Shown: positions 10,142 through 49,100 of the stretch, one piece after another | Layout of the letters: each line of letters starts with the position of its first letter | How positions within the stretch are numbered: the stretch's first letter is position 1 | Assembly (NCBI GenBank): GCA_009746045.1 | Contig: RPFO01000436.1 | Span: forward strand, 883,127 to 947,126 | Direction: 5' to 3' | Source of the DNA: Mesostigma viride | Taxonomy: Eukaryota > Streptophyta > Mesostigmatophyceae > Mesostigmatales > Mesostigmataceae | Length of the DNA: 64,000 nucleotides | Made by a program: the position numbers and the translations under genes | Notes under the pieces: model-generated | What the model saw: the letters and a program-made list of their open reading frames with translations, nothing else | Databases searched by the model: none | Told to the model about the DNA's origin: nothing

Positions 10142-11591
10142 CGCTTCAGCCGCCGCCTTCTTGCCCGCCCACAGCAGCTTCTTCTTCTCCTCCAGGGACT
10201 TCTTGTCGCCGCCACCCACCGCCATGCCGGCTGGCAAGAGGGGGGGGGAGGAAATGCGTCCCAGGGGGGGGAAGGAAACGCGGCGCAGGGTGAGCGGTGC
10301 AGAGGGCATGGCATAGGGAACCTAAAAAGGAGGGCAAACGGAAGGGGAACTACTTGGTTCAGTGCACGACAGGAGGCTACCCTACTTGGTGAAGGCTTTC
10401 CTGAGAAATGCATCCACCATGGCCCAACTGTGCCACAAAGTGCCAGCACAAGCATCCAAGTAGCACGCATCACGCTCGCAAGCAGCCCTTGCCAGTCCTT
10501 TGCCACCAATAGCTTCCTGCACCCCACCATTGCCTTTCGCATGCCAATTACACAGACCACGCAACCCCCCCCCCCCCCCCAAAAAAAACTAAAGTACCCT
10601 CCCTCACCGCCCATCAATAAGATAAAAAAACCTCCCTCACCGCCCATCCATAAGATAAAAAAACTCCCTCACCGCCCATCCATAAGATAAAAAACCCTCC
10701 CTCACCGCCCATCCATAAGATTAAAAAAACCCTCCCTCACCGCCCATCCTTAAGCATAACGAAAACAGCAGCACACCCCGCCCTCGCCGCCCATCCTGAA
10801 GCATAAAGAAAACAGCAGCACGACCCTCACCGCTGATCTTGGCCGCGCGCTGCATTGCCAGCTGGGCGATCGCGCTGGCGTTCTGCGCCACCGCCACCTG
10901 TCCCGCCGCCGCCTGCGCCGCCACCGCCTGCAACTGCGCCGCGCCAAACGCATGACCCGCTGCGCCGCTACCCAACGCCAATCCCGGCGCACCACCACCT
11001 GTCGCGTCGCGACTGGCCGCCATTGCAGCCAGCGCCGCCGCCTGCAACACCCCCGCGTTCACCGCCGCTGACGTCGCCACAGCGGCCGCTGGCGCGTGCA
11101 GCTCCACCCCAGAGCTGGCCGGCGCCGCCGTGGCCTCCGCGGCCGGCGAGTCGCTCCACCGGGACTTGCCCCTCTCCCTTCGCTTCCTCGACGCGGGGGC
11201 TGCTTCCTCCGCACCAGCGGCTGCTGCTGCGCTCCCTGGTGATTCTGATGCCATGCCTCCAGCAGCCGCCGCTGTGGTGGCAGCATTAGCACCAGGGGTA
11301 CTCGTGACGGCAGCAGCAGTGCTATTAATGGCACCAGCAGCACCCGCAGCAGCACCAGCCCCAGTCGCGGGAGCAGTACTCGTGGCAGCAGGAGAAGCAG
11401 CAGATAGACTAGCAGAGCCAGCTTTACCGCAGGCTAATTCTGGCGCACGCGCCGCATCCCCAGCCCCAGCCTCCCTGGCACAGGCAGGCGCGAAAACCGA
11501 TGGGTTGATCGACGAGGCCCCCTTGTCCGCGGGGAGGGGCGTCGTTGCCACGGCAGGGCCACCTGCGCGCGTGCAGGGGGTGCTGGCGGGG
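10142..11591 (-). CDS. Ala-rich protein with splicing-factor-like motif (two exons, partial)
   Basis: Two exons splice together in phase on the minus strand. The first runs from an acceptor 'CACACTTAG' (exon top 11591) to a donor GCG|GTGAGG (exon end 10831). The second is 10230-10142, ending GCG|GTGAGC. The first encodes about 250 residues of Ala-rich low-complexity sequence around 'SRKRRERGKSRWSD', which fits a U2AF-ligand motif (basic residues before Arg-Trp) as in SF1 or SF3B1. It ends 'AIAQLAMQRAAKIS'. The joined second exon gives 'GDKKSLEEKKKLLWAGKK'. Start and terminal exons were not found. The combination suggests a splicing-related nuclear protein (RSRC2/SMAP- or KHDC4-like are guesses), but I do not identify it. 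It could also be the 3' part of the NIPP1-like gene upstream. Confidence 0.45.
10585..10830 (-). repeat. Intronic minisatellite (about 34 bp) carrying donor-like sites
   Basis: Starting directly after the exon donor at 10831, seven or so units repeat on the minus strand. Most carry 'GATGGGCG' followed by 'GTGAGGGAGGG' and a T-rich 'TTTTTTATCTTATG'. Units nearest the exon carry 'TGCTGCTGTTTTC' instead. Each unit repeats the authentic junction GCG|GTGAGG, so the array looks grown from the exon-intron boundary. Confidence 0.75.
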
Positions 11592-12935: not shown

Positions 12936-13805
12936 CTGTGCAGCTGCCGGCGTCCGCCCCCTCCCCCCCCCGCACGACGTGGTATGCGCGGGTGCTAGCA
13001 CCCAGCACAAAAGGTGCCGACCGCCGCTGGCCTGCGCCCAGCAACAACTCGGCTTGTTGCGGCGCCAGGGGTTTGCCCCCCACTTTGGTCCCGTGCGCCG
13101 ACCGCAGGTCCGTCAACAGCACGCAGCCGTCACTTCGGCGGTGCAGGATGGCGGCGTGCTGGCGGCTGCGCTCGCATCGTGACGTCATTGACAGAAACCC
13201 ACTTGATGAATTCAACATGATTATATGTATACGTTGAGTTGACCAGAATGAGGCACCGGAGCATCCACAAAGGGCTGTGTGACGGTAGAAAGCAGTCCCT
13301 TTCTCCATTATGGTACCATAATGGAGAAAGGGTAGAGGAGAAATGGTGACGGAGGAAAGGGATCAGGACGGGTACCCGGCAATTGTTTATAATTTTTTGA
13401 AATTAAGGGAATGTTAGCAAGGTCGTTTTTCCCAAGAAGAGAGGGGGGGGGGGGCACTGCGAAGAAAGAAGAGGCATTGTTGCCATACCACCCTTCCAAT
13501 GGCAGTACGAGTAGGGAGTGCCAAGACACCCACGGGGCCCCCTAGTGCACACACATCCATAAGTTCTTTGAGAAGCTAGCGGTGCATCAGCCCTACCGTG
13601 GTCTATACATACTAGGCAGATCATGCGCGAGGCGTACCTGACCGAGGGGTGGTCCAACAGCACATCACAGGTTGGCGCCCGGCCCAGCGTGTAGCACTTT
13701 TTCTGGTCCAGCGGCATTTTCTCCACCACGCTTCCCTCCTTCACGATCTCTAGTGTGAAGCCGGGCTGGCTGTCTTCCGTGGCCCCCCTGGGCGGAGTAC
13801 CGCAC
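12936..13805 (-). CDS. NIPP1-like FHA-domain protein (PP1 regulator), two exons, partial
   Basis: Exon 13,805-13,638 begins after acceptor 'ATGCGGCAG' and ends GTCAG|GTACGC. Exon 13,165-12,936 begins after 'GAGCGCAG' and ends CACAG|GTACGG. They join in phase 2. Together they encode a full forkhead-associated domain: 'FTLEIVKEG', 'CYTLGRAPTCDVLLDHPSV', then 'SRQHAAILHRR', 'TDLRSAHGT' and 'VLGASTRAY'. The Gly-Arg, Ser-Arg-x-His and His-Gly-Thr residues that bind phosphothreonine are present. The 'LGASTRAY' end is characteristic of the NIPP1 (PPP1R8) branch rather than kanadaptin. Family role: nuclear scaffold that targets and inhibits protein phosphatase 1 on splicing factors. The N-terminal exon and the RVxF PP1-binding site were not located. 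Confidence 0.75.
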
Positions 13806-15374: not shown

Positions 15375-18300
15375 ATGGTGCGCGTCATCCGCGTGGGCCT
15401 TCCAAGCGAGACAGCAATTGCTGGGTGCGATCTTGCACCCTATGTCCTTTTGAGGAGACCCGATGGAACTGTGACTGATGAGGAGGTGGAGGATGCCGTC
15501 GTGGTCGATGGGTGTTACGTCAAGTCGACGTGGTAAGACATCGAAAGCGGGTAGACCCTCATGCAGTATATAGGCAAGTATGGATTGATGAAGGTGGCAC
15601 AACGGGCAGTTTTGACGAACCAGCTTTTTGAACGTTTCCGGGGCTTCTTTGTAGCGGATAGGCAGGGTTTCAAAAGTCTGTAGCATGTTGTCAGGCTTCA
15701 AAAGCCCTCGACTTGCAGGTGTATATTCGGTTCGTTTGGTCTGGCGTGCCTGCTGTTCGCGAAGGGTCGTCACGCCAGTCGAGTGGACTAGCAGCTCGGG
15801 AGGGCATTTATTCGTTTATTTGCGTCTTTATCTGTCGCGGATTATTTTTAACCTAGGTTTTTGTAATCCCCCCGTCCCCCTCCTGTTGAGTCAATATGTT
15901 GGCATGATTGCCACCATCATACCATTAGGCTGACCATCCCGTTGGGGTGCTGCGGTGGCTTCTGTATAGGTAGATATGTGGGTGGCCTAGCGGTTGTGTA
16001 ATAGGTGGCGGGGTGATGAGTGGCAGTTGCACAATAGCAACGTCCTGTCCGCTTTCTCCACCAACCCGTAGTCGTCATGAAGCCATTGGCGAGGTTCACG
16101 TCTGTTCAATACTTTATTAGATTTTTCAATACTTAATTTTTTTGTGTTTATTTTGGCTGCTTGCGGTCAGCTATGCAGGTCCTGCAGCAACGCCTGCTGA
16201 TGACAGTGTTCTTGCTGGAGAACTGTCCCTGCTCCATCCCAAATAGCGCTTTTTCTTTTTCATTCACGTTTTTGTAGTTAAAATACTTTTGGTATACATG
16301 TGCCTTTTTGTCTAAGTTTCTCTCCTTCTGGTATGCAGGTTTAGTTCCGGTAGGTGTGTCCCTGCAGGTAGTTCCTTTGCGGCAGCTATTTTCACTCAGT
16401 TTCAGCTGACCTTGTAAGCCGCAACACACAAAACCTGCTGCGGGCGCACAAGTTCTCAACAGAAATGGGGCTTGTGTACGCACCTGTATTTGTCATTCTT
16501 TGTATACACCTGACAGCATTATCCACGTATCTGTCGACCACGGCAACAGCATTGTTTCAGCCAGTACGGATATTGTTAACATCATTTTGGTAACCTTAAA
16601 TACTAGCATTACTTCGTCATTGAGACCATAACCTGGCATGTGCATAGATCCTATGAAATATGCAGTTTACTAGATATATATGTATGACTTCTCTTTCTGT
16701 GCAACGGACCACTTAAAAAAAAAAAGGTGCAATGGACCACGCCGCCATCCTGCTCCTTGTCTTATCATTGAAGGTGTTAAACCAGAACAGAAAGTCACGC
16801 TTTAATATCCATCCCAGATACCACGACTCCACTTTGTCCGTTCCTCTTCCCCCCCCTCCCCCCTCTACCTTCCCCCATAAGTTGTCGGCACCTTGGTGTT
16901 TTCTCCCCACCTTTCTTCTTGTCCCCTCCGCGCCACCTCAGAAGTCCCCACCCCTGCTTTCAAAACAGGTACAGAAGTTTTTTCTTTCTTCTCGGCCTCT
17001 GTCAGCATGTCTGCGCATCTTTTAACATCCATCGACACCCTCACCAATTCGCCCCCCTTCCCACCACCATCATCACCACCAGCGCCCCTCACCCCACCCC
17101 ACCCCACCCCACCCCCACCCCACCCACCCCCCACCCACCCCCACCCACAATGGCATTGTATTAACTTCTCTTTACGACACCACCACCGCCACAATAATAC
17201 CAGTGACCGCAACTGCCACCACAGTAACAACAACTACGCCTCCATTCCTTTTCCACCCCCTGAGACTGTACCGCAGCGATAATCTACGACACTTTAAGAC
17301 ATGTGGCAGTATGACGCTGACCGCTCTTCGTTTTACCCTCCCCCCCCCCCCCCCCCCGTGAGCAGGTACCGCAGCGCGAGCGAGCGGGGCCGCGCCGTGT
17401 GCAGCGTGCACCCAGGGGAGCGCGCGACCGTGCAGTGCATCCTGTGCATTAAAGCCGGCGTGCTGCCCCACAAGACCTACCACTGCTCGCCCAAGTGCTT
17501 TGTCGCCTCGTGGCCGCAGCACATGGCCATGCACAGCCACCCGCACAGCGGGCAGAATGGGCACCCGGGGGAGGCCGGCAAGCATGGGGACGGGGGGGGG
17601 GCGAACGCTTCCCCTTACCGCAGCTCGGGGGGCGGCAGCAGCCAGTTTGGCGCGCGGGCGAGCGTGAACAACCCGTACATGAACAGGTGAGAGAATAGAT
17701 GTGTGCCGGCATTGATCAACGCGGGCAAGTGAGAGCAGGCATCTGTATGCAAGCATGCATGAGCAAGAGAGGGTTCATGGGACAGGAACGGTGCACACGC
17801 CAGCCCCCTGTCGACTAAATTGGATAAAAAGTACAATAGAAGTATGTATAGAATGACTTCTGGCCTGCGCTGGTTGTCTCCTTGGTATTTATAGAACGAC
17901 GCTTGCATGATGCGCGCTGGTGGGAGCATGGATGGGGAAAATGGCGCCAGCATAACGCAAAATGGCCAGCATATTGGGGCGTGTGTAGAGCACTTGCTGT
18001 AGGGTGTTGTGTCTCCTAGTTTACAAGCGCCCCACTCGCGTCAGAAACGTCAGACATGAACAGGGAATGTACAAGGAAACAGGTCTAGCCATATCAAGGA
18101 AACAGGTCTAGCCATATCAAGGAAACAGGTCTAGCCATATCAAGGAAACAGGTCTAGCCGTGTCAAGGAAACAGGTCTAGCCGTGTCAAGGAAACAGATC
18201 TAGCCATATCAAGGAAACAGGTCTAGCCGTGTCAAGGAAACAGGTCTAGCCATATCAAGGAAACAGGTCTAGCAATATCAAGGAAACAGGTCTAGCAATT

Positions 18301-21300
18301 TCAAGGAAACAGGTCTAGCCGTGTCAAGGAAACAGGTCTAGCCATGTCAAGGAAATTGATTAGTTCGTGGCACAGTGCCCCATCAAGCCTCTGCAGTGCC
18401 CCCCTCATCCTGGCTTGTCACCTGGCATTTCATGTCCCCATCCCTCACCCCTCCGATTGTTAGCATGGCCCGCCCCCTCCAACTCCTGCTGGCCCTTCAC
18501 GCCCTCTTTATTCCTCAGGCCTATCGTTCTTGGCATTCCCTACCCTACTCATCCTCTCACTTCACCCCACCCACACAATCGCCCTTCTCACCGCTTGTGT
18601 CCTGCCTGACCCATCCCATCTTTGCTATGTTTCCCTCCTTCCCTGTCCCTTTGTTTCCATCCCTCGGCCCTCCTCCCCCCCCCCCCCCGCGCCCCATACC
18701 CATCCATCCCCCCCGCACCCCCCTCGCCAGCCAACCGGGCCGCTCCGCCCCCGGTGTCTCCGCGGCCCAGGCGGAGCGCGACAATGTGGACTACTGGTCA
18801 GAAGTGTCCCGCTCGCGCCACTACACGCCGACTGCGGACGACATCGGCTACCTGCTCAAGTACGAGTGCGCGGTGGTGGACGCGGCCACCAACACGGTGG
18901 TCGAGCCGGCCAACACAGTCTACACCTCGCGCGTGATCCAGGCGCCGCAGCCGCTGATCCGCCAGATGGTGCCCGTGTTCGAGCACCGCCCCGGCGACGG
19001 CATGAGCGACGTGACCTTCTCTGTCCTCTCCTTCAACGTGCTGGCAAACCTGTACGCGTCGCCCGAGCTGTACTCGTACTGCCAGCCGTGGGCGCTCGGG
19101 TGGTCGTACCGGCGCCAGAACCTGCTTCGCGAGATCCTCAACTCCAACGCCGACATCCTGTGCCTGCAGGAGGTGAGATCGCTTCACCTGTAATTGCCTG
19201 CGCATGAATCCGTTAGCCCCAGTTTTGTTTCACTAGATCCTCAACTACAACGTAGACATCCTGCCTGCAGGTGGCTTTTCCTGTTCTGGAGTACCTAATC
19301 ACTTGCCCGTTGTTAAGTTACTATACCAGTAGAGCTGCTGCACGTGATCTTTGCTTCAAATGCCAACAAATACCCTCTACCTGCGGTAGGCGAGGGGTTG
19401 TTGCTTTACGTGCCCAGGAATACGGCCCCTGCCCAACCACGCCTAACCCCCTATCGCCACAATCTATACACACACACCCCCACATTTACCCCCATCCCTA
19501 ATCACTTCCCCCCCCCCCCCCAGGTCCAAAGCGACCACTTTGAGGACTTCTTTGGCCCCGAGCTGGACAAGGCCGGGTACACGGCAGTCTACAAGAAGAA
19601 GACCGGGGAGGTGTACACCGGCACCGCATACGCGTTCGACGGCTGCGCGACCTTCTTCCGGCGCGACCGCTTTGTGCTGGTCAAGAAGTACGAGGTGGAG
19701 TTCAACAAGGCTGCGCTCTCGCTCATCGACGCGATCACGCACCCGCCCAGCAAGAAGGCCGCGCACAACCGGCTGCTCAAGGTATGTGTGTGTGTGGTGG
19801 TGAGGGGGGGGGGAGACCTACAGGGTAAGAGGGTTGGTAAATGCAGCTGGTAACCACAGCAAGAAGGCCGCGCACAACCGGCTTGCTCAAGGTGGGCAGG
19901 GGTGGCTTCGTCTCTTGCGTGATCGGTAGATCGGTATGAGAAGGTCCATTAGGGACTTTCCGGCTTAAAAAGTTTGTGGGTGCTGGTTGAGCCCGACGAG
20001 AAGGCCGCAGCGACCGGCTGCTCAAGGTGGGGGGGGGGGGGGGGGGGGGGGTATAGGGGGTAAGAGGGTTGGGGCAGGTAAACCCAGCTGGTAAACGCAG
20101 CAGGTAAACGCAGCAGGAAGGCCACACACCACCGGCATTGAAGGTGCATAGGCGGGGAAGGGGAAGGGGTGCTCCCAGGGTATAGAGGGGGCCATGTTGA
20201 GGGGGCCTAGTTGAGGGGGCCCTGTTGAGGGGCCTAGTTGAGTGGGCCGACTTGAGTGGGCCATGTTGAGGGGGCCTAATTGAGTGGGCCTATTCTAGTG
20301 GGCCTACTTGAGGGGGCCATGTTGAGGGGGTCTAGGTGAGTGGGCCTAGTTTAGTAGGGCCTGCTATGCTCGTCATGGGCGTTTTCGTGGCGTGCCACCT
20401 GGCAGGTTTCATCATTTTGTGTGCATGTGGTATACCAATGGCGTTCTCCATGACAACGTCCACTGGACAGCGTGGTGCTCGTACTGATGCTGTACATGGC
20501 ACACGTGCTGAACCCGCACCGTTGCTTAACACCTTGTGCCTGTACCACGTATGTCGTATTGATTTATTCTAACTACTGCCAGGACAATGTCGCACTCATC
20601 CTGGTGCTGGAGGCGATCGACCCACCGGACCCCGAGGCGGCTGCGGCGGGCAAGCGCCAGCTCATCTGCGTGGTGGGTGGCCTTGCCTTACACACACTAC
20701 CGTACCATGATATGATATCATGCCGTGATGATAATTATGGCATAACTATTATGGCCATGATATAATATGATGGCATAACTATTATGGCCATGATATAATA
20801 TGATGGCATAACTAATATGGCCATGATATCATACGATGGCATAACTAATATGGCCATGATATAATATGATGGCATGACGATGATTTAGGTGGCATCCGCG
20901 CCGTCAGCCGTGTGCACAGCTAGTTGCTCACTTGTGTGGGCGTCCGAGTGTCGTGGGCGTTATGGTGGCGAGCACCTGTCAGTATGGCTGCGGAGGCGTG
21001 GTAGGCACCTCCGGCAGCGCTCGTCTGCTTTGATATGAAATTACTTCGTTCAAAATTGCTTTGTTTTCATTTCAGTTTCGGCTTCGCATTAATGGTGAGC
21101 GCCTCTCTCACGCATATAAAAAATCACATCACATGGTACGCCCCTAGCGAAGCTGGTTGCTCAGCACAAATTAGTCCATTTGCTCCTCTTCTGGTGGGTG
21201 CTGCGCTGAGGACCTTCGCCCTCATGTGTACCTTGATGCCGCGCTCACTGTGATATGGAGTTTGCTTGCCCCCCTTGCCCATCGCTCACCGACTCTTGCT

Positions 21301-23542
21301 CCCTTGCCCTAGCGCGCCTCGCTCGTCCTCCCCTACTCGTTCTTTTCCTCTTGCCCCCCCCCAGCCCACTCGGTGGCCCCCTCTCTCCGCTTGCTCCCCT
21401 CCTCTGCCCCTTGCTCCCCCCCCCCCCACTCCCCTGCCCTGCCCCGCCTCCATCCTCCCCCGTGCCTTAGCTGCCCCTGATCATTTCCCTGCCCTTGCCC
21501 TGGCTCATCTTACTACTCCCTTGCCCTTGTTTGCCCCCTCCCCCCCCGCCCCTCGCCCAGGCCAACACGCACATCCACGCCAACCCGGAGCTTAAGGATG
21601 TGAAGCTGTGGCAGGTGCACACGCTGCTCAAGGGGCTGGAGAAGATCGCCGCGAGCGCGGACATACCCATGATCGTGGCAGGGGACTTCAACAGGTGAGC
21701 AAACGCGGTGTGGGTCGAGGGGGAGACGGGAACACTGTGTGTGTGTTGGTAGAGAGGGTGGCTTTTTAAGTAGTGTGCGAGACTTTGACAGGTAGATCTT
21801 GTGGAGGTGGGGAGGTCTTCAGGCCTTCAGCGGGTGAGGGGAGGCGAGAAGTGGTGAAAGTGACAATTTATGTTGCGGGTGGCGTCAAACATGTGAGCAT
21901 GTCTTATTTCAGTAATGTGGGATGTCTCAACAGGTGAGCAAGCCGGGGGAGCAGGTGATATTTGTCGTTGTCCTATTTAGCACTTGAAGTGACATAAACA
22001 CATAAGGTCACTAGCACTGATGGGGTTCCCCCGATAGTTCCTCGTCCCTTGCTGGCATTTAACGCGCCGTTGTCTGGCTTTCCCCGGTATGACACTCGAG
22101 TATCACCCGTCAACCTCTCTCCTCCCTCGGCCCTTTTCTAATCCATCATGCTTCGCTCGTGCATTCTGCCCTCTCCTCCCCCCCTTTCTATCGCCCCCTT
22201 CCCCTGCCCCCCCCCCCCCCAAACCAGTGTACCTGGTAGTGCCCCCCACTCGCTCCTCTCGATGGGCCGCGTGGACCCCGGCCACCCCGACCTGCAAGTG
22301 GACCCACTGGGCATCCTGCCCCCCAGCGCCAAGATCTGCCACTCGTTGCCGCTCATCTCCGCCTACTCGGTCCTCATCAACCGCAACATCTGCAACGTGC
22401 CCGTGCCGGAGCACCAGCGGCGCAAGATCGACCCGGCATCGTGCGAGCCGCTGTTCACAAACTACACGCGCGACTTCAGTGGCACGCTCGACTACGTTTT
22501 CTACACAGGTACGCTCGACTATGTTTTCTACACAGGTACGCTCGACTACGTTTTCTACACAGGTACGCTCGACTACGTTTTCTACACAGGTACGCTCGAC
22601 TACGTTTTCTACACAGGTACGCTCGACTACGTTTTCTACACAGGTACGCTCGACTACGTTTTCTACACAGGTACGCTCGACTACGTTTTCTACACAGGTA
22701 CGCTCGACTACGTTTTCTACACAGGTACGCTCGACTACGTTCTCTACACAGGTACGCTCGACTACGTTCTCTACACAGGTACGCTCGACTACGTTTTCTA
22801 CACAGGTACGCTCGACTACGTTTTCTACACAGGTACGCTCGACTACGTTTTCTACACAGGTACGCTCGACTACGTTTTCTACACAGGTACGCTCGACTAC
22901 GTTTTCTACACAGGTACGCTCGACTACGTTTTCTACACAGGTACGCTTGACTACGTTTTCTACACAGGTACGCTCGACTACGTTTTCTACACAGGTACGC
23001 TCGACTACGTTTTCTACACAGGTACGCTCGACTACGTTTTCTACACAGGTACGCTCGACTACGTTTTCTACACAGGTGCACGCTCGAGAGTGGGAAGATC
23101 CCACGGTATCGTTCTTGTGACGTAAAAGAATAGGGGTTCCGGATGGGCAGGATATTGTTTCTGTGCTGGCACACCCACATGGTGACAACATTTCGGTCAC
23201 ACAAGAATGACCTCCCCCCCCCCCTTGGGCTGCTGTTGTCCCTTTTGTTTAGTCTACCTGCATCTCTTGCCCTTTGGCTTATATATATCCCCTTCTCTCT
23301 TGCCCTTCTATGTTGCCCCCTCTAACCGGTTCCCCCTTTCCTCATCCCCCGGGTCACCTCACTTCCCCCCCCGCCCCCAACCCCCAACCCCCCCGCCACC
23401 AGCCAACTCGCTGCAGCCGGTGGCCCTGCAGGAGCTGCTGGACGAGGAGGTGCTGGCGCGCGACACGGCGCTCCCCTGCCCGGCCATCTCGTCCGACCAC
23501 GTCTCCCTCGTGGCCGAGTTCCGATACAAGCTGCACCGCTAG
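15375..23542 (+). CDS. CCR4: CCR4-type poly(A) deadenylase, CCR4-NOT catalytic subunit (8 exons)
   Basis: Exons: 15375-15532, 17366-17686, 18731-19172, 19524-19781, 20583-20672, 21561-21694, 22228-22508 (first donor), 23403-23542 (stop TAG). All have GT-AG borders and agreeing phases, giving 608 codons with the stop; plant CCR4 proteins are about 600 residues. Exon 1 ('MVRVIRVGLPSETAIAG', 'APYVLLRRPDG') is only 52 codons. Exon 2 encodes the plant-type Cys/His finger ('CSVHPGERATVQC', 'YHCSPKCF', 'WPQHMAMH'). The EEP nuclease domain has 'FSVLSFNVLA', catalytic Glu in 'DILCLQE', 'FDGCATFFRRDRF', 'ANTHIHA', 'AGDFN', the Asp of 'TLDYVFYT' and 'SSDHVSL'. It removes poly(A) from mRNA with Mg2+ in the cytoplasmic CCR4-NOT complex. 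There is no leucine-rich repeat, as in plants. Exon 7 ends in a 22-copy minisatellite containing the donor. Confidence 0.95.
15533..17365 (+). other. CCR4 intron 1
   Basis: Spans 1833 bp from TG|GTAAGA to a C-rich acceptor ending 'GTGAGCAG'. It holds T-rich sequence at 16,090-16,280, a pyrimidine tract at 16,845-16,875 and a (CCCCA)n stretch at 17,085-17,150. An antisense open frame over exon 1 (15,773-15,357) looks incidental. Confidence 0.7.
18073..18348 (+). repeat. 23-bp minisatellite in CCR4 intron 2, 12 copies
   Basis: Units read 'AAGGAAACAGGTCTAGCC' followed by a variable CATATC, CGTGTC, AATATC or CATGTC. The array starts just after 'GACATGAACAGGGAATG' (18,053-18,070), which resembles the end of exon 2 ('TACATGAACAG|GT'). 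Each unit carries AACAG|GT, a donor-like word. Confidence 0.85.
19235..19270 (+). repeat. Decayed copy of CCR4 exon 3 end in intron 3
   Basis: 'AGATCCTCAACTACAACG' and 'GACATCCTGCCTGCAG|GTGG' repeat the exon 3 end (19,133-19,172: 'GAGATCCTCAACTCCAACGC', 'GACATCCTGTGCCTGCAG'), including the following GT. It cannot be coding in the mature message because of indels. Confidence 0.75.
19858..20143 (+). repeat. Three decayed copies of CCR4 exon 4 end with donor in intron 4
   Basis: The authentic end 'AACCGGCTGCTCAAG|GTATG' (to 19,781) is echoed at 19,858-19,891 ('GCGCACAACCGGCTTGCTC'), 19,998-20,026 ('GCGACCGGCTGCTCAAG|GTGG') and 20,112-20,143 ('CACCGGCATTGAAG|GTGC'). Spacing is 110-135 bp, and the segments between the copies are also related ('GGTAAGAGGGTTGG', 'CAGCTGGTAA'). 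The repeated unit therefore spans exon end plus intron start. Confidence 0.8.
20190..20350 (+). repeat. G-rich degenerate tandem repeat in CCR4 intron 4
   Basis: About ten units of 15-17 bp of the form 'GGGGGCC(C/T)AGTTGA' or 'GTGGGCCTACTTGA', mixed with 'GGGGGCCATGTTGA'. G-runs are dense on the transcribed strand. Confidence 0.75.
20700..20885 (+). repeat. AT-rich tandem repeat in CCR4 intron 5
   Basis: Four to five units of about 36-40 bp contain 'ATGGCATAACTATTATGGCC' and 'ATGATATAATATG'. It begins some 30 bp after the exon 5 donor. Confidence 0.75.
21778..21933 (+). repeat. Decayed copies of CCR4 exon 6 end in intron 6
   Basis: The authentic end 'GGGGACTTCAACAG|GTGAGC' (to 21,694) is echoed by 'GCGAGACTTTGACAG|GTAGAT' at 21,778-21,791 and 'GGGATGTCTCAACAG|GTGAGC' at 21,919-21,933. 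Confidence 0.65.
22482..23075 (+). repeat. 27-bp minisatellite of exon 7 end plus splice donor, 22 copies
   Basis: Exactly 594 bp, 22 units of 27 bp with very few substitutions. Each unit encodes Gly-Thr-Leu-Asp-Tyr-Val-Phe-Tyr-Thr (two units have Leu for Phe) and ends CACAG|GTACGC; the last ends CACAG|GTGCAC. The first unit is the genuine end of exon 7, since its product joins in phase to 'ANSLQPVALQELLDEE' of exon 8. Every unit keeps the reading frame and the same phase-1 donor. The repeated block carries the catalytic Asp of the EEP domain. Confidence 0.95.
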
Positions 23543-23760
23543 GGGGGTTCGGGGCAAGGTGCCAGTATCAGCGTGTGGCAGCACGATGCGATAAGCTGCA
23601 CCACTAGCGGGTGGGGGCGGTTGCTAGCATTACTAGCACGTGGCCAAGTGGCGATGCATGCTGCATGGCTAGGGGGGGGGGGGGGCGGTTGCTGGCATTA
23701 CCAGCAGGTGGCCGAGTGGCGATGCATGCTGCACGGTTCGGTAGCATAATGCTACTTGCG
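23543..23760 (+). repeat. CCR4 3' flank with echo of the stop region and direct repeats
   Basis: 'CGATAAGCTGCACCACTAG' at 23,589-23,607 repeats the gene's end 'CGATACAAGCTGCACCGCTA' (23,522-23,541). A segment of about 80 bp ('GGCGGTTGCT.GCATTAC.AGCA' to 'GGCGATGCATGCTGCA') is tandemly duplicated at 23,620-23,675 and 23,690-23,740. Confidence 0.65.
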
Positions 23761-26459: not shown

Positions 26460-28848
26460 AAAATATAATTACTTACAGCAGAGTGAAATCACTCAAACCA
26501 AAGCAAACGCCCAGCTATAAACCTATATACAGAGCCATGTCAAAGCTCTATACTACGATAAGACCAATGGAAACGCCTAACGGGAGGAACCTAATAGCCC
26601 TGCTGCACCGCAAAATCAGCCCGCGTACGGCGGAGCATGATGTCAGCCATGGCCCGAGTCAGCGCCACCGACAAGCGCTGACGCCAATATGACGTCCAGG
26701 TCCGCGCCGACCATGGGGCCCGCTGGCCCTCCAGGTCCAGCCGGTCCTCCCGGAGCCGGCAACACTCCTTGAAGAAGGCGGAGGTCAGGGGCCCCATGGC
26801 CCCAAACTCCTCCAGGACAAAGGGCACCACACGATGGTGCCCGACGTCGCCGTAGGCCAGGAGCTTGGCCCGCTCCGCCCGGTCCGCCGTGTAACCTGCC
26901 GTGAGGGAGGCCCCAGCCACGTGGCTAAGAGCCAAGGGCCGCGCCACCGAAACGTCAATAAGCAGATGCCGGCCACCCCCCTCAAAGTCCAGCACCACGA
27001 TGTCAGGCCGGTGGTTGGGGGAATAGAAGGCAGCGCCATCCGCATCCACGGACCGGATGTTCGCGTGGGGGAAAACCGACCGGATCATGGCGAGCACCAC
27101 CGTCAGGAGGACAGTGTGCAAATACAAATACCAATTCTGATTCTGTTGGCCCCCCATGCAGGCAAGGTAGTGAGTCCCCGTGGGATCCAGCGGTTGCCCA
27201 CAGCTACCACAAGGCCGCCCGGCCGGAACAAGAGGCTGCGGGGCAAATAGCTGGTGCCGGAGCGCCACCGAGTAGTGGCTGGGAGCCAAGGCGAATGGGG
27301 GGGCCATGGGAAGAGCACGAAGGTACGCCGAGCCCACACTCCGCAAGGAAAGCGAGAACAGCCACGCACGTCCCTGGGCGTTGAGGTCCGCGAAAAGAGC
27401 AATCCAATCAGCCGTGTGCAGAATACCCGCGTAGGTTTTCTGGTGTTTATCGATGACGCGAGCAGGGAATGCGGCGGGAGATTGAACGGAGGCGACCGAG
27501 GGAGTGCCGCGAGGGAGGTGGCGCTGTACCGCCTGAGCGGCACGGACGGGAGAACAGGCCTGCTGGATCTCAGCATAGGCCTCCTGGATGGCGGTGACGA
27601 AGGGCAAAGGGCTGCTGGGGTCCAGGAGGTCAGGCGCTGCTGTTGCCAAAAGGGGCAGGAGCCGGCAGCTTTCCGCCCACGACTGAGCGACGGAGCCCAA
27701 AAATGCTGCTGGGGCCAGCCGGGCGGCACGAGTCAGACCGCAGCCACCCATCCGTGCAGGCAGGGAGGCAATGCGAATAGCATGTGGCGGGAGGTCGGGG
27801 CCCGGGACCAGCTGCGCCAAGGCCGACTGGATGCGTTCGTCGTGGCCCTCGGCGGCCAGCCGGACCTGAGCCGGAAGAGCGCCCCGGAGCCAGTGAACGA
27901 CGCGAGGGTGAGCGCAAAACCACAGAAGCAGACCCTTGGTCTGCGAATCATGAAGGCGCGCAATCAAGGGCAGTACCTCAGTGCGTGCCTCGAGGGCGGC
28001 CCGCAGAGCATCGATGACAAACGCGGGGTCGCCAACCGGAACACCGAGGACATCCAACCCATGGAGGCGCTCGTCCCGGCCCAAGAGCTGGGGCGGAAAG
28101 CCGGAGCAATCACCTTGGGGCGAGTACACCGCGCACTTGGCCAGGGTCAACTGGAGGTTGATGTCGGCCACCGCGGTCTGCAGTGCCAGCAGAGCCGCGG
28201 TGGTGTCCGGCACAGGGCCCAGAAGGTAGATATCATCCAAGTAGGCCTGAATAGCGACCGCCGGGTGGGCAGCATGGACCGCTTGGAGGCAACCCTGGAG
28301 GGGGGCGGCAAAGTACAGGGGTCCCAGGGGGTCCCCTTGCTGGGTGCCCGACCGCGACAGCAGGCCGCCGCGAGTGCCGTCCTCCATGATGTGAACCAGT
28401 TGGCCGGGCTGGCCGTAGCACACGGCTGTCCAAGCGTACAAGTCCTCGAAGGACTCCATGACGGCCGCAAACATGCTGGCGCGGGACAGACTGTTGAACG
28501 CGTTGTGGCAGTCGACCTTGACGACAGCGTGGGTGGGGTGGGCCTCGAGGTAGGCCTGCACCGAATGGATGAGGATATCCGCCCCGCCTGGAGTCGTCAC
28601 CCCCAGCTGGGCCGCCACCGAGGTCTCACCCGCTGCGAGGGGCGGGCAGAAAAAGGCACGGAGCTCGGGCGCCTTTTGGCGGCAGATCACTTTGCCCACG
28701 AGCTTGCGGAGCACCTCACCGCAGGCGATCGGGCGCACCTTGCCCTCGGGGGGGGGCAAGACACCCTTGAGCAGAGCGAGGAGGCGAGCGCCCGCTAACC
28801 ACTCGCGCGCAGCGGGAGGAACGCGACCAGCCGCCAGGAATATATATA
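26460..28848 (-). mobile_element. RLE-type non-LTR retrotransposon, 5'-truncated insertion
   Basis: A block of about 2.4 kb flanked by AGGAATATATAT at 26,448-26,459 and again at about 28,836-28,848, which I read as a 12-bp target-site duplication. It splits plus-strand L1-like DNA that contains the ORF1 remnant. The polymerase frame runs from the upstream edge of the block, so the insertion is 5'-truncated inside the reverse transcriptase. Confidence 0.6.
26591..28835 (-). CDS. Reverse transcriptase with C-terminal restriction-like endonuclease
   Basis: One uninterrupted minus-strand frame of over 720 codons; the frame stays open upstream of the first usable start near 28,759 to the element edge. 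Counting from that start, the motifs are 'KVRPIACGEVLRKLVGK' (residues 7-23), motif A 'VDCHNAFNSLSR' (82-93), motif B 'GTQQGDPLGPLYFA' (138-151) and catalytic 'AYLDDIYL' (172-179, Leu where many have Ala). A Cys-x2-Cys...His-x3-Cys zinc knuckle is at 517-534 and the PD-(D/E)xK endonuclease core 'RPDIVVLDF' (584) with 'HLLIDVSVARP' at 598-608. This order (RT, CCHC, RLE) is that of R2/NeSL/CRE-class elements that copy themselves by target-primed reverse transcription. All catalytic motifs are intact and there are no internal stops, so the copy is young despite 5' truncation. Confidence 0.85.
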
Positions 28849-29290
28849 CCAGTAGTGTAGATTAGTAAGGCTTAGCCTAGCATGTGGCACACGCGCGTGT
28901 GCGCCCATAATGGCCCCCATGGATGATGCCTTCAACATTTAGCCATGCTTTGTCTATAATGGGACCCCCATGGATGTTGCATTAAGAATTTAGCCATGCT
29001 ATGCCATGCAGAGAGATGCTCTCTGTCGACAAGCCATGTCCTAGCTCTTGTATAGCCATGATGACCTTCCTCCCCCGTGCCAGGATCCCCCCCGGCCTTA
29101 GGCGGGTTGAACCTGAGACAGCATGGTGGTGCGGGTGCCTTGGTGCACCTAGAGCACGGGTAGCTTACATTCCCACCCTTGCATGAAGTAGCCTAGGGTG
29201 TATTAAAAGCCATATGCCCCTTCTCAGGGATATGTGCTACATTGACTCCCAACGGAGTGATGTTGATAATTAATTAATTAATTACGGCAG
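28849..29290. repeat. Retroelement 3' repeat block
   Basis: Contains a duplicated unit near 28,905-28,990 ('TTTAGCCATGCT', 'GACCCCCATGGATG'). The part from 29,120 to 29,290 is the inverted counterpart of 5925-6090, ending in (TTAATTAA)n. No gene. Confidence 0.5.
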
Positions 29291-37164: not shown

Positions 37165-40100
37165 TCATCCTTGACTTCGGGGCTGTTGCTCCACTAGGTA
37201 ATTAACCACCGCCGGGTTCACAGCATAGTAAAGCACGTTGTGCCCCTCCTGCATCATACAAGAAGCGACAATGTAAATCTCGTCAGCACGCACGTATAGC
37301 CATGCATTTCATGACACCCGGGCTTGTAACTCTCGGCAGCGAGAGTATAAGGGTGGAAGCTGCAAAAGGACCTACCACCACAACGCCGTTGTTGGGAATA
37401 CGCATTGCTTGCTTGAAGCACATTGGACGTAGCAGTTAAGGTGAATAGGAGAGATATATGTCGGGCACAAGGTGAATAGAAGAGATATATGTCGGGCACA
37501 AGGTGAATAGGAGAGATATATGTCGGGCACAAGGTGAATAGGGGAGATATGTGTCGGGCACAAGGTGAATAGGAGAGATATATGTCGGGCACAAGGTGAA
37601 TAGGAGAGATATATGTCGGGCACAAGGTGAATAGGAGAGATATATGTCGGGCACAAGGTGAATAGGAGAGATATATGTCGGGCACACATTCGCTCTTGTG
37701 CATCAAGTTTATCAAGTCCATACACTGCACATTGGCCAGCTTGGTACCTATGTCGCTTGCGATAGTTCCTGGCTACGGCAAGTCAGCCCCCTTTTCAGCC
37801 CTTTGTTGCAACAAGTATGGGAGCGAGAGCTCAATAAATCCAGTTCTAACTGCGCGCAAAGGATTCATCATGTCAGTACCCCCAGAATATGAATTTCAAC
37901 TCAGACTCAGCCTGCTGCCCTGCTCTTGACATCACAGCGAGCCCGGCATTGAGCTGAGACCAAAAGCACATGTGGGCAGAAGGGCTTTGCATCCTTACAC
38001 TGGCACCAACCACTCGGCATTCTGAAACCATGATATAGTGGTACGTGTGAGCATCCTTGAAAAGGTTGCTACTTATCATTGAGTCACATGAATGAAGTCA
38101 AGATGACAACGCCCAGAAAGGATGTGAACTTAATCGTAATGAGCCAACCACCCTGGAGCTTTAGGGTGTCTCCACGCATGTTGGGCATGAAACAGAATAC
38201 AGCAATTCGTGAAATCAATGTCACTTGGTTCCTGCTTAGCTGTAACTGGGTTCAAACAGCGCAAATTGTGCAGGCTTCAAATTTCTCCATGCTTTGTTGG
38301 GGGCATGATGACCACAAGATACCTAAACTGAAGTCATGGCTTCCTCAGATGTCGATGGTCCTGCATGATGTTGCCCCAGTCCAATTAACATGGTATATTA
38401 ATTGAGCAAACATAATCAAATTGGATTTCAATTCACTATTCAAAGCTCCACATTGTACAAAACATGTTTGGATGCATATCCGTTGAACTATGACAAACTT
38501 ACAAGTTGAGCAAGAACTGGACAGCGTAGCTTACCGTGTCCTTGTCGTCCATTGTCATCCCCTTTCCCTCCACCAGGTACTTGACCAGGTCCAGGTGGCC
38601 TCCGGCAGCAGCCAAATGAAGTGCAGACTTCCCATCCTGGTTGCAGGCATGGGAACAACAAAGCAGCCATGTCAATAACAGTGAAACGAAGTCGTATAAA
38701 ATGGTGTGGAATTAAAATGCTGCCTGAGGAAGAATCTTCACCGAACTCTCTGTGCAAGTACAAAGAAAGAAGATAGGCTGATGGAAAGGTGCGCAACACA
38801 GCCCACCACGCACTAGTGCGTAGAAACATAAAAATGTCAGCTATGCCCATGCTCACGCAAACATCCTGAATCTTGTGTGTCCTTACATGCAAAAATTCAC
38901 CAGGGAGATGTTGCACAGGAGAATAGATACGTGAACTTTCCAAATGCTTTTTTCTCCATGGATTGGCCAGTTCCTCCTTTATTGTTAGGCATCAGCTCCA
39001 TGCTGTAACTTCAAGTTGACAAGAATCAATTAAACCATCCTAGTGCCATAGCTTGTGCAGTGCCCAGTGTGGTCTCTTGGTGGTACGAATGCAGATGGGT
39101 GTGGGGGAGATATTGCATCACCTTTGGAGGACTTGCCGTATGCAGAATTGGCGGGCGTTAGCCACCCCCTCCTTTACAGAGAGCTCTGACACTACCAAAA
39201 CCCAGGTAGATCAGTAGCGAATGACATGCATGAGGATTCGTTCAATCCTATGCAATATCTAAAGGGCCTGTAAATCACCCACGAGTGGCCACCGGGGTAG
39301 CATGCAGACCAGGAGTCTTGCTTACCCTAACACATACCACATAAGGATGAAGGACCGAGTGCCCAATGACTTTTCTTAATTGTTGAGCTTTGCTCATTTT
39401 ATATGTGACACGCGGACGGGCTCAAAGGGGACTGAACTGCTGTAGGTAGCGTAGTACTAGCGCTTGTCACAAGGGTACTGCACCGGACGGCCTTTTTGTG
39501 CCGGCCCTGAGTGTGATCCCGAAGTGCAGGCCTATAGGTAGCTTCTAATATATGTCACTAGACCTTGTACCTGCGCCTGGCGTGGTGCAGCTGTGATGGG
39601 CAGTCAGTGCTTACTGTGGTGAAGGGGTCATGGGGAGGCCTCTTTTCAGCTTCGCAACTTGATCCCAGCATTTGGTGGCAAGGTCGGCTGGCCGCTATGG
39701 CGGCCGCGCTGGATGTAAGACGATGCTATCAGCCTCTCCGGGCGTTGAGAGGCCTAGAATAAAATCTTTATAATTGCCACCAACCAATACTGGCCATAGT
39801 AAGGGTTGTTGGCTGGGGGACTCTACCGTTTGAGTAAAAGGGTGTGGTTTCCGGCGCTGGGCCCACCAACGATTTCCCTCTGCCCCTGGGTGTGGCAAGC
39901 AGCTCCTTGACTCTGGGGGAGCTCCGTTTTAAGTCGAACTACGTCGGGGAAGGAGCCATACGGGCCAGGGCTAGCAGCTACGGTGGAAAGAATCGCAGGC
40001 GGGGGCGAATCTGCCCTTAAGTGTGGAGATAGCTAGCGCAGGGTGCCGGGTAGCCAATAACTGCCAGGAGCCTGACAGCGGACCCGATCTTTCGGCCTGT

Positions 40101-43100
40101 GGCCAGACGGGAGTTTCGGGGAGGATGCGGGGCTGGAGCAAATCTCGGCGGAAGGAGCGCGCTCTTCATTATTGCCCAGTTTTTCAGCAAAGAATGACCG
40201 CCTGGCGGGGCTGAAATTATGGCTGTTTTATCGCCTTTGTTTCTATCCTGTATGATGCGCTATAGGAAAGACAAGAGTTCGGTTCTGCAAGGCGGGCATA
40301 TCTATGCCACCAAATATTTCCTACCAATTTACAAGCGCTGGTTGGGGCGTTGGCTAAACAGTTTTCCGGCCAACGCTTCGGTAGGGTAGAGGGCCTATCA
40401 CCACGATGGCTTCAATGCCGGGAAATCCCAGCCTCAGGGGTGGGGCTGGTGATGGGTCCTGGGCTTGTGAGAGACGGTCCGGGGGCGTAAGACCTAATGA
40501 GCAGCCGCAGGAAACCGCCCCCCTAACGGGGGGAACGACATGGGTGCCGCCCTGCATCCGCTGGGAAACCGCAGCGGCCACACGGGAGCGGCAGTAAAGC
40601 TGCGGCAGTGCGCAGGATGGGGGCCATGGGCGGAGAGAAACTCGGCATCAAGGCTGGCGACAGCCTTGGTGGCGAGGTAGGAGGTGTGGGGGCAACACCT
40701 TGTGTTCGAGAAGTAGTGGAACACCTTGTGTTCGAGTTGTAGGAGTGGGCCCCAGCATGGTGCTACAATAACCAACTTGATAATGATGTGCACTAAGTTC
40801 GACGGTATGGTATAGGCTGTACGTCTAAAGCCTAGCACATAACAATGTAAACAAAATGTTTCTCCGTTGGGAAGGAACTCCCATGGATCAAAAGCTAGAA
40901 ATGTATTTGGAGAGCTTTGCTCTTTTTTATATGTGGCACGCGAAAGGGCTCAAAGGGGACCGAACTGCCGTAGGTAGCGTAGTACTAGCGCTTGTCACAA
41001 GGGTACTGCACCGGACGGCCTTTTTGTGCCGGCGCTGATCGTGATCCTGAAGTGCAGGCCTAGGGAGCTTCTAACGTACGTCAATAGACCGTGTACCTGC
41101 GCCTGGCGTGGTGCAGCTGTGATGGGCAGTCATTACTTAGAGTGGTGTAGGGGACGTAGGGAGGCCTCTTTCTGCTAATGCCCACCCACCCCACCCACCC
41201 ACCCACCCCCACCACCCACCCACCCACCCACCCACCCACCCACCCACCCACCCACCCACCCACCCACCCACCCACCCACCCACCCACCCACCCACCCACC
41301 CACCCACCCACCCACCCACCCACCCACCCACCCACCCACCCACCCACCCACCCCCACCCACCCACCCACCCACCCACCCACCCACCCACCCACCCACCCA
41401 CCCACCCACCCACTCACCCACCCACCAACGCACCCACCCACCCACCTCTTTCAGCTAGCGCCCACCCACCCACCCGCCCACCCACCCACCCACCCGCCGC
41501 CCCCGCCCGCCCGCCGCCCGCCGCCCGCCCGCCCGCCCGCCCGCCCGCCCGCCCGCCCGCCCGCCGCCCGCCCGCCCGCCCGCCCGCCCCCGCCCCCCCC
41601 CCCCCCCCCCCCCCCCCCACCCACCCACCCACCACCCACCACCCACCCACCCACCCACCCACCCACCCACCCACCCACCCACCCACCCACCCACCCACCC
41701 ACCCACCCACCCACCCACCCACCCACCCACCCACCCACCCACCCACCCACCCACCCACCCACCCACCCACCACCCACCCACCCACCCACCACCCACCCAC
41801 CACCCACCCACCCACCCACCCACCCACCCACCCACCCACCCACCCACCCACCCACCCACCCACCCACCCACCCACCCACCCACGCACCCACCCACCCACC
41901 TCTTTCAGCTACCGCCCACCCACCCACCCACCCACCCACCCACCCACCCACCCACCCACCCACCCACCCACCCACCCACCCACCCACCCACCCACCCACC
42001 CACCCCCACCCACCCACCCACCCACCCACCCACCCACCCACCCACCCACCCACCCACCCACCACCACCCACCCACCCACCCACCCACCCACCCACCCACC
42101 CACCCCCACCCACCCACCCACCCACCCACCCACCCACCCACCCCCACCCACCCACCCACCCACCCACCCACCCACCCACCCACCCACCCACCCACCCACC
42201 CACCACCCACCCACCCACCCACCCACCCACCCACCCACCCACCCACCCACCCACCCACCCACCCACCCCCCCCGCCCGCCCGCCCCGCCCGCCCGCCCGC
42301 CCGCCCGCCGCCCGCCCGCCCGCCCGCCCGCCCCGCCGCCCGCCCGCCCGCCCGCCCGCCGCCCGCCCGCCCGCCCGCCCGCCCGCCCGCCCGCCCGCCC
42401 GCCCGCCCGCCGCCCGCCCGCCCGCGCCGCCCGCGCCGCCCGCCCGCCCGCCCGCCCGCCCCCGCCCGCCCGCCCGCCGCCCGCCCGCCCGCCCGCCCGC
42501 CCCCGCCCGCCCGCCCGCCCGCCCGCCCGCCCGCCCGCCCGCCCGCCCGCCGCCCGCCCGCCCGCCCGCCCGCCCGCGCCCGCCCCCGCCGCCCGCCCGC
42601 CCGCCCGCCCGCGCCGCCCGCCCCCGCCCGCCCGCCCGCCGCCCGCCCGCCGCCGCCCGCCCGCCCGCCCGCCCGCCCGCCGCCCGCCCGCCGCCCGCCG
42701 CCCGCCCGCCCGCCCGCCCGCCCGCCCGCCCGCCCGCCGCCCGCCCGCGCCGCCCGCCCGCCCGCCGCCGCCCCCGCCCGCCCGCCCGCCCGCCCGCCGC
42801 CGCCGCCCGCCCGCCCGCCCGCCGCCCGCCCGCCCGCCCGCCCACCCACCCATCCACCCACCCACCCACCCACGCTGCTAAGAGGGACAACACCTTGTGT
42901 TCTAGTATGCTGGGCGCCCAGCATGGTGCTACAATAACCAACTTGATAATGTTGTGCAATGATTTTGAAGATGTGGTATAGGCCCTACGTATAAAGCCTA
43001 GCACATAAATATGTTAAATAAATGTTTCTCTGGTGGGAAGGAACTCCAATGGACCAATAGCGAGAAATGTATAGAACAAGCATTTCAAGTGGCAGCGTGG

Positions 43101-46100: not shown

Positions 46101-49100
46101 GCTCAGAAGTCGTCCTGGAGCTGGCAGCAGGAGATTCTCTCGTGAAACTGATCACGGCGTGCCAGCTGGTGGATGTGGGGTCGACGAGCCAGAAGGGCAC
46201 TTCGTCGGAGATGCTGCCTTTCCAGGAGGGTGGGGCAATGCTGGTGTCTCCGGCGGTCGGGGACGCGATGAGCATGGGGAAGCTTCAGCACAAGCTGGAG
46301 AAGGGCCCCGGCAAGAAGAGGCAGGGTGGCCCGTCCAACAACAACAAGTAAGGGAGCGGTGCCTCCTTCCGCTGCCTCTTCCAGCGCCGCTTCCAGCTCG
46401 CGATTGGTGGCAGCAGGTACGCTCAGGCCGTAGGCGCGATAGGATGAGTCGGGCTTTTAATGCTCGCACACTAGCCTGTCAAGCGGTTAGGGCGTTAGAC
46501 TGGATGGGGGGGGGGGCAAGACCCGCCTGCCGTAGATTCAGCCCGTGTGCCCGGGCCGATGCAGCAGGTGGCCCTAGATGGGATTGATGATGCTTGCAGG
46601 TCCTTTGTCCGCCGGAATGGTGGCTGCGTAGCGGGAATGGTAGAATCTATAGTGGATGGGGGTGAGCTATATACTAAAGGAGCCCCTTACGATCGGTTAG
46701 TAGCTGCACGCTTGGCTTTGCCTGGTGTGGGGGAAGGCGGCCAAGTGGACGTGCTGAATTTACTACCCTCCTCTTGGGGAGCGATTTTAAATGGTGAGAG
46801 TAAGATGGTACGTACGCTGAGCCCAGCAGAGCGGATCTTGCAGAAGTCGATGCGGATCTCGCGGGGGTGTAGCATGGAGGAGTTTGCGCGGGTTTGCACG
46901 GTGTGTGTTGAGCAGGGGATGTTGGGCGGATTTCCTGAGGAGGAGCCGCCTGTGGTGAACGGCACTTTCGGGGTCGGAAAGCCCGACGGCCGTACACGGC
47001 TGATTGTGGACAACCGTCCTGGCAACATGCCACTACCAGATCCTACGCCCGCTTTTCTCCCACACCTTGGCGTGATTTGCGATCTGCCCACGCGCGCTGG
47101 CAAGGATGTCTTTGGGGGCGTATCTGATCTGGATTCCTACTACAACAGACTCCGCCTGCCCGTTTGGATGCGGCGGTAGTGTGCCTGGATGCCGGTGTGG
47201 TCGGATCTGGTGGCTCTGAGTGGGCCGCGTCAGAAGGTGTGGCCGTGGATGTTGTGCTGGCCAATTGGGAGCAAGCTGACCGTCGCGGTGGCCCAGTGTG
47301 TGCACCATTCTGTGCTGTACCGCTGTGGCCCCAAGCCCCCGCTGAAGGCTGGTCGGGGCCTGAGCATCGACATGTCAGCGCTGATCCTGGTGGCGGAGGC
47401 TAACGAGGCGGGGCAGACCGTCCGGCTGAGGATGGAGGAGGACCCTGCTGTGCCACTGGTGCCCTCGACGTGCTTTGAATCTCGGCAGGATCTGGAAGGT
47501 TTGCATGCTGTGGCGATCGATGACCTCCATTTCACCCACTGTGCGTCGGTGGATGGAGTGGATCATCAGCTAGATTGTGTTCAGGCTGCCTGCGCCGCTG
47601 TTGGGCTGGTGCAGAAGTCTGACAAGGTGGTACGGGCGACAGCCGAGCAGACTGGTGTGCAGGCGGTGGGTGTCATCCACCAACGGCATGGTGACGTGGT
47701 GCCTGTTCCTGAGCGTGTGGTGGCGGTTATCGCCGCTACTTAAAGAATCTTGGATCGCGGATTTACATTCTACCGCGAACTTAGTTCTGTGCTTGGGAAG
47801 TGGGTGTGGATGCATCTGCTGTGCCGCCCCATGCTTTTGGTGTGGTCTGAGATGTATCGGCTGCTAGCAGCCATGAACGCCGCCCTGACTGGGCGCCCCT
47901 GGTGGCTCCCTGAGGGGGCCCGCCGGGAGCTTCAGGCGGCGATCGACCTGGCCCCCTTTTTGAGGGCTGCCAGGGCCCGGCCCCTTTCTGACCGGGTCGT
48001 CGCAAGTGATGCGAGCAGCTCCGGCGGTGGGGTGGTCTACAGGGACCTGCGTGGGGCTGATTGTGCCCGGCTGGCGACCCGGTGCGAGGCGCGGGGGTGG
48101 CGGACGACAGCCTTAACGTCTGGGGAGGACTGGGACCTGGAGCGCATGGAGGAGGCGGACTACAGCCTGCTGGGCGGTGGCCACTGGCGTACGGCACTGT
48201 CCTACAGGTGGCGGGGCCAACCTAACCACATCAACGTCAAGGAGGCGATTGCTGCGATGCAGGGGGTCGAGTGGTCGTGCCGGACCAAGGCGTGTCGAGG
48301 TAAGCGTGTCGTCCGGCTCGTGGACTCTAGTGCTGTGGTGGGGGCGTTTGTCGGAGGGCGGTCATGGTCCTACCGCCTCAACCAGCTGGTTCGACGCTAC
48401 TGCGCACTGTCACTGGCTGCTGACACGCACAGCCACTGGGTCTGGGTGGCGACCGACCACAACCCAGCTGACAAGGCCAGTCGGCGTGGCGCTTGGATTC
48501 CTGACTTGACCCGGTGCCGTGACGTGCACCCCAGCCCTGGGCCTCGGGGGGCGGCGCCCACGGGACTTGGCACTTTCGAAGGGCGCTGTCAACCCCGTTT
48601 CTACCTTGACTGCCTGCCGGCGTGTGGTGGCTGCCTACGTGGCATGGGCGCCGCCTGGCCGAGTCGACCCGGCTGACGTGGAGGCCATTTTCTGTGAGTG
48701 TATTTCTGCTGTCTACCATGCCGGGGGTGGGAGCGTTTAAACCTTATGCAAGTACGTCAAGGCTGGCCTGCACCTGTACTTCCCTGACCTAGTTCGGAAC
48801 TGGGTTCTTGCGGACCACACGCTTGCGGGGTGGCAGCGGCTTGTTCCAGCTGTCACCCCTCCCCCTATGGCCTGGCGCCTTTGCTATTTCACTGCCCTGT
48901 TGCTAGTTTCACGTCGACAGGTGCATTTGAGTGCGTTGATTATTATTGCTTTCCAGCAGTATTTACGCATTTGCGAGGCGCTAGGGCTGCGGGTTAGGGA
49001 TGTGGCTCATCCTCGCCACCCCATTCTCGAGCCAGGGCCCACTGTCAGCGGCCTTGTGCTGAGCAACCCCAAGACTGCGCAGGGGGCGGCCCAGCACGCC

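Follow-up and report, generated by a model that had tools for sequence, protein, structure and literature searches.

Which 5' splice site does a gene use when the end of one of its exons, donor included, stands 22 times in a row, and how does such an array come about? This question was raised by a stretch of 64,000 nucleotides from Mesostigma viride (the window; positions 883,127 to 947,126 of the forward strand of contig RPFO01000436.1, assembly GCA_009746045.1). Here, a gene that probably encodes the mRNA-trimming enzyme (deadenylase) CCR4 carried a 27-bp tandem repeat at the donor of its exon 7. The answer that we consider likely was an array of the type called mirages in amphioxus, formed by duplication across the donor. 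In this case, the spliceosome would take the first donor, CCR4 would remain an ordinary enzyme of 607 residues, and units 2-22 would be spliced out with intron 7.

A donor repeated at the end of exon 7

The final 27 nt of exon 7, together with the donor that follows them, were present 22 times at 22482-23075 (plus strand) in a unit-by-unit count. Tandem Repeats Finder (TRF) called the array at 22484-23087 (period 27, 22.3 copies, 98% matches, score 1162), in agreement with the 22 tandem units of the original prediction. Twenty-two copies at 98% identity were not due to chance. Unit 1 was exonic, and units 2-22 were probably intronic. The latter started with GTACGC and ended with CTACACAG, and each unit border thereby placed an acceptor-like end and a donor side by side. 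Only four substitutions were found across units 2-22: C>T in unit 2, the same T>C in units 10 and 11, and C>T in unit 18. The changes in units 2 and 18 were silent, and the one shared by units 10 and 11 replaced F with L. Such near-identity suggests that the array expanded or was homogenised recently. When the assembly (439.9 Mb, 2243 contigs) was searched at the DNA level, only this array was matched (four overlapping matches).

The donor CACAG/GTACGC had been described as repeated 22 times, which was correct for 21 units. The 22nd donor, at 23076-23081, read CACAG/GTGCAC and lacked the G at position +5 that was present in 7/7 CCR4 donors. Each unit carried a plausible 5' splice site, with +5 G in 21/22. 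With the first donor (GTACGC, 22509-22514), which is probably the one in use given the behaviour of introns 3, 4 and 6 described below, FYT was joined in phase to ANSLQP and the 607-residue product was obtained. In a read-through translation, the last donor added 189 residues (21 x 9), kept the frame and met no stop. Both outcomes had been foreseen from the sequence.

The gene model comprised eight exons on the plus strand (15375-23542), and every intron was GT-AG. Exons 1 to 6 were placed at 15375-15532, 17366-17686, 18731-19172, 19524-19781, 20583-20672 and 21561-21694. Exon 7 (22228-22508), also aligned to human CNOT6, ended in array unit 1, and exon 8 (23403-23542) held the SDH motif and the stop codon. 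If the first donor is used, intron 7 extends over 894 nt (22509-23402) to the acceptor CCACCAG/CCAACT; the other six introns measured 351-1833 nt. The protein matched the EEP nuclease family Exo_endo_phos (PF03372, E 2.1e-24), and its best solved relative was human CNOT6/CCR4a (aligned at query 226-602), with CNOT6L also matched. The gene identity and exon structure proposed earlier were upheld by these results. A weak match to zf-C6H2 (24.1 bits) stayed under the cut-off of 30, and leucine-rich repeats (LRR) were not among the two families listed for the protein at E 0.001. Plant-type CCR4 has a MYND-like finger in place of the LRR. No relatives of the protein were found in the viral and genome contig collections that were searched.

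In the alignment, the Asp of the repeated GTLDYVFYT paired with the Asp in IDYIFYS of CNOT6. Counting 39 residues back from D530, the Asp in the SDH motif, identified this position as D491, so the repeated motif did include the catalytic Asp, as had been stated. The protein had equivalents of D491 and of S529-D530-H531, which places the array between two active-site motifs of the predicted enzyme. D491 of CCR4a has been described as an active-site residue whose replacement by Ala serves to inactivate CCR4 (PMC8216464).

The 10-bp GCACGCTCGA had exact plus-strand matches in the window at two places only: 22482-22491, where unit 1 starts, and 23078-23087, beginning with the third base of the last donor. 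The 8-bp ACGCTCGA that they share was found in the exon end, at 27-bp intervals across most units (the unit 18 copy has one change), and once more 29 bp past the last unit's copy, directly after the last donor. It may have seeded a first duplication by slippage or a microhomology-mediated event. This short tandem duplication would have captured the exon 7 3' end together with the donor, and slippage or unequal exchange would have raised the number to 22 copies.

Exon-end copies within CCR4 and along the contig

Each query joined the last 45 nt of an exon to the first 15 nt of the following intron and was compared with the remainder of that intron, and the scores were set against 2000 dinucleotide shuffles. 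Donor-spanning copies were detected in introns 3, 4, 6 and 7 (4/7), with scores of 53, 67, 30 and 77, none of which was reached by any shuffle (0/2000 each). All of the copies were on the plus strand. Intron 3 contained a decayed copy of the exon 3 end and its donor (19226-19274). The exon 4 end and donor recurred at 19857-19893, followed by two diverged copies of the exon end at 19991-20021 (score 28) and 20111-20136 (score 32), and the copy in intron 6 was short (TCAACAGGTGAGCAA, 21927-21941, 15/15 positions). Exon 8 behaved similarly: copies of its end, including the stop-codon region, lay 3' of the gene at 23595-23734 (score 43, 0/2000; TRF period 68, 2.1 copies).

When all eight exons were compared with all seven introns, every match scoring at least 28 was an exon 3' end located in the next intron. 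Exon 3 was represented once, exon 4 three times and exon 7 many times, and exon 6 appeared only with its donor included. In this search, in the background and 304-kb searches below and in the one that gave the 190-bp pair, masking was applied to short-unit repeats and to stretches dominated by one base; the donor-end and FHA tests were run unmasked. At a score of at least 30, copies were present at 5/8 donor or stop ends versus 0/8 acceptor or start ends (p = 0.013, a contrast chosen post hoc). The acceptor of exon 8, whose score was reached by 6/2000 shuffles, owed its match to a run of C, and that of exon 5 was marginal (26/2000).

The first in-frame stops of introns 3, 4 and 6 were located at +19, +70 and +2 nt, respectively, ahead of the copied donors. 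Since a stop precedes each copy, the later donors of these introns could not be used productively. Only the first donor yields the enzyme there, and this was our main reason to infer the use of the first donor in intron 7 as well. Removal of whole units by splicing inside the array would likewise leave the frame intact, since AG and GT meet at each border and a unit measures 27 nt.

Other repeats were noted near or from the remaining exons. Intron 2 contained a 23-bp minisatellite (12.3 copies, 18072-18355) whose unit includes AAACAGGTCTAG. Just 5' of this array, 11 nt (18054-18064) matched the end of exon 2 exactly. Exon 5 had one match outside the gene (47369-47406, score 34).

For a wider view, we used a 304-kb sample made of the window, 40 kb adjoining it and 200 kb further on the same contig; the fetched loci included 8626 N. 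Prediction of coding segments relied on the strongly GC-rich third codon positions of CCR4. The predictor was trained on CCR4 alone, recovered 7/8 of its exons, and gave 177 segments in the real sequence versus 22 in shuffled sequence. Predicted segments scoring <12 were excluded ahead of the counts, and seven CCR4 segments were tallied separately. The CCR4 3' ends were richer in copies (4/7, one of them the stop end) than those of the other predicted exons (12/170; p = 0.0014). Local duplication was common in this genome: 200/2524 40-nt windows outside CCR4 (8%) had a copy scoring at least 30 within 1 kb.

One of the 12 other exons with a copied 3' end belonged to a second gene with the same layout. 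An exon at L017:1717-1896, on the same contig, matched UPRTase (PF14681, E 1.2e-20), and its end plus donor (CAGATG/GTGGGC) stood in three tandem copies with a period of ~99 bp (TRF L017:1844-2101). The next exon (acceptor CTGCAG/GTGTGC) joined in phase. Only the first donor of this UPRT gene escapes an in-frame stop, because a TAG lies 13 nt past it. Such duplications may persist since the signal met first, whether donor or stop codon, would be used and the protein would be unchanged.

Two further exon ends with donor copies in their introns were recognised by eye, at L011:4000-4200 (minus strand) and at window 10151-10297. The latter was a predicted exon on the minus strand whose end and GTGAGC donor recurred, diverged, ~130 nt downstream. 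In a gene of PPR-repeat segments (L013:3319-5958, minus strand), one exon-end fragment recurred in its intron, the 17-nt end region of another exon recurred, and near the end of yet another one an array with a 23-bp unit (12.5 copies) began. The exons of an FHA-domain gene (window 12936-13638, minus strand) had the donors GTACGC and GTACGG, and its long second intron, with an acceptor chosen by eye, contained five AGGTA[CT] versus 0.55 in shuffles (1/1000). A 31-bp array of eight copies at window 37438-37686, where no gene was identified, had a unit opening with the donor-like AAGGTGAAT. Elsewhere, we observed a 756-aa open frame with a reverse transcriptase domain (PF00078; window 26594-28861, minus strand), an identical 190-bp pair 555 bp apart (window 50516-50705 and 51071-51260), 4-bp C-rich repeats over 1.7 kb (window 41181-42851), and a ~11.8-kb satellite with a 46-bp period and 261 copies (L009:3627 to L010:5460). 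Scans of the 64-kb window for tRNA and Rfam families gave no matches.

Competing explanations

The original prediction regarded the array as a coding minisatellite. The open frame was weak evidence for this: the 27-bp unit was open in 5/6 frames, 67% of shuffled 27-mers were open in any given frame, and 39/80 minisatellite arrays in the 304 kb had a period divisible by 3. With backgrounds this high, the frame and the period were rejected as evidence of selection for coding. Units 2-22 all come after the first donor that can be used, and in introns 3, 4 and 6 in-frame stops precede the copies. The simplest reading was therefore an array that is intronic except for one unit, and the coding label was not sustained.

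A number of observations weighed against use of the first donor or against its generality. With 21 identical donors, nothing but position could favour the first. Unlike those of introns 3, 4 and 6, the later donors of intron 7 keep the frame, and no stop penalises their use. Introns 1, 2 and 5 were marginal in the donor-copy test (49, 38 and 38 of 2000 shuffles reached the score), and no copies of the two FHA-gene donors were found in it. At 17253-17278, the acceptor of intron 1 and the start of exon 2 may have a decayed copy, whose AG is lost (score 27, 1/2000). No general bias to 3' ends was seen in the 304-kb sample, where copies scoring at least 32 were present downstream of 12/170 exon 3' ends versus upstream of 10/170 5' ends (p = 0.83), and a genome-wide rule that copies gather at 3' ends was therefore not supported. 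Restriction to non-coding copies at most 250 nt away gave 8 versus 2 (p = 0.11), with a cut-off picked after the rows had been viewed. Published human cases pointed the same way. A CBS junction duplication has been reported to be spliced mainly at the more distal copy (PMC2630376), IFI6 to draw its donors from two units further downstream (PMC4526556), and many exon-intron boundary repeats to be also retained in transcripts (PMC2812944). Thus, the principle that the first signal wins was not universal.

Stochastic donor choice would fit the human IFI6 and boundary-repeat precedents and would produce a ladder of CCR4 isoforms with 0-21 extra GTLDYVFYT next to the catalytic Asp, differing in activity. 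The later donors were all in frame and stop-free up to the last, 21 were identical, and the fold favoured none. However, the copied donors of introns 3, 4 and 6 and of UPRT lay behind in-frame stops and are necessarily ignored in productive mRNA. Moreover, up to 189 residues would be inserted between the D491 and SDH active-site motifs, presumably with harm, and the amphioxus mirages seemingly left splicing unchanged (PMC3087553). We therefore regarded such a ladder as unlikely. If it were true, the choice among 21 identical donors would insert strands of nine residues in the segment that separates the catalytic Asp from the SDH motif. The more elaborate version, in which changes of copy number between strains or cells tune deadenylation through this ladder, seemed quite improbable.

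A role of the array in splicing itself was considered very improbable. Many U1 sites might reinforce the definition of exon 7, or the AG/GT borders might allow stepwise (recursive) removal of the intron. Most borders read TTTTCTACACAG/GTACGC, with a pyrimidine stretch, AG and GT adjoining. On the other hand, usual intron sizes exceed a spacing of 27 nt, the other six CCR4 introns had no such donor array, and the intron 3 and intron 4 copies had diverged as expected of neutral sequence.

Tandem repeats are frequently misassembled, but creation or inflation of the copies by assembly error was highly improbable, as single-base differences marked units 2, 10-11 and 18, the flanks and reading frame were intact, other arrays far above 594 bp were present in the same assembly, and the published Mesostigma viride genome is described as built from PacBio reads (N50 11.2 kb, 113x; PMC6947507). 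Masking of the later donors by RNA structure was rejected, since the array folded worse than its shuffles (20/20 shuffles at least as stable, z = +9.3). Being less structured than its shuffles, the array gave no sign of hiding the first donor either.

Known repeats across exon-intron borders

The CCR4 array belonged to a known kind, that of repeats spanning an exon-intron border, and the claim that it was undescribed did not hold in view of the amphioxus mirages, the human CBS repeat and IFI6. The mirages of Adh3 and of the globins BflGb6 and BflGb9 were reported as minisatellite-like repeats across such borders; reverse transcription PCR suggested that regular splicing was unaffected, and length instability was observed (PMC3087553). 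As described there, many mirages have an AG/GT splice signal and units of 10 to 160 bp, several loci occur per genome, and degenerate repeats are found in an intron. A repeat unit that spans the border was likewise seen here in the 27-bp array, and occurrence at several loci of one genome in CCR4 introns 3, 4 and 6 and in UPRT. In contrast to mirages, the present case combined 22 nearly identical in-frame units at the donor of a nuclease motif with copies in several introns of one gene, and was known from DNA alone.

The human CBS repeat c.1444_1467+7(16_21) is a 31-bp variable number tandem repeat whose notation assigns 24 nt of each unit to the exon and 7 nt to the intron (PMC2630376). It shared with CCR4 an enzyme gene and a donor inside the unit, repeated 16-21 times in CBS according to the same report, where copy number is polymorphic. 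At later donors, the 31-bp unit of CBS shifts the frame, whereas the 27-bp unit of CCR4 keeps it. The unit of the IFI6 minisatellite is short (12 bp). In IFI6 (6-16, G1P3), this minisatellite supplies multiple splice donors, and alternative use of them has been reported (PMC4526556), unlike in CCR4, where the array was seen at the genomic level only. Tandem repeats in human segmental duplications, with units of ~30 bp on average, were reported to alter gene structure, some of them at exon-intron boundaries, and to form possible new introns supported by transcripts (PMC2812944); in CCR4, an existing intron was lengthened. The gain of introns through tandem duplication of sequence that carries AGGT (the Rogers model; potato RdRp) likewise involves a boundary-crossing duplication that gives new splice signals (PMC4974935), but no new intron position was evident in CCR4.

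The CCR4 case stood out by having 22 copies in frame within a catalytic motif and by the recurrence of such copies within one gene. The copies in CCR4 introns 3, 4 and 6, the copy of the stop region and the triple copy in UPRT were new in this analysis. The array comes from the genome of a green alga and lies outside the animal cases that we found in print, in a literature search too limited to establish that no green-alga precedent exists. With 21 equal 5' splice sites, all in frame and differing solely in position, the locus is a natural competition test of how far position by itself decides donor choice. Moreover, the fresh and diverged copies in one gene illustrate one way in which introns grow longer and exon ends leave relics behind.

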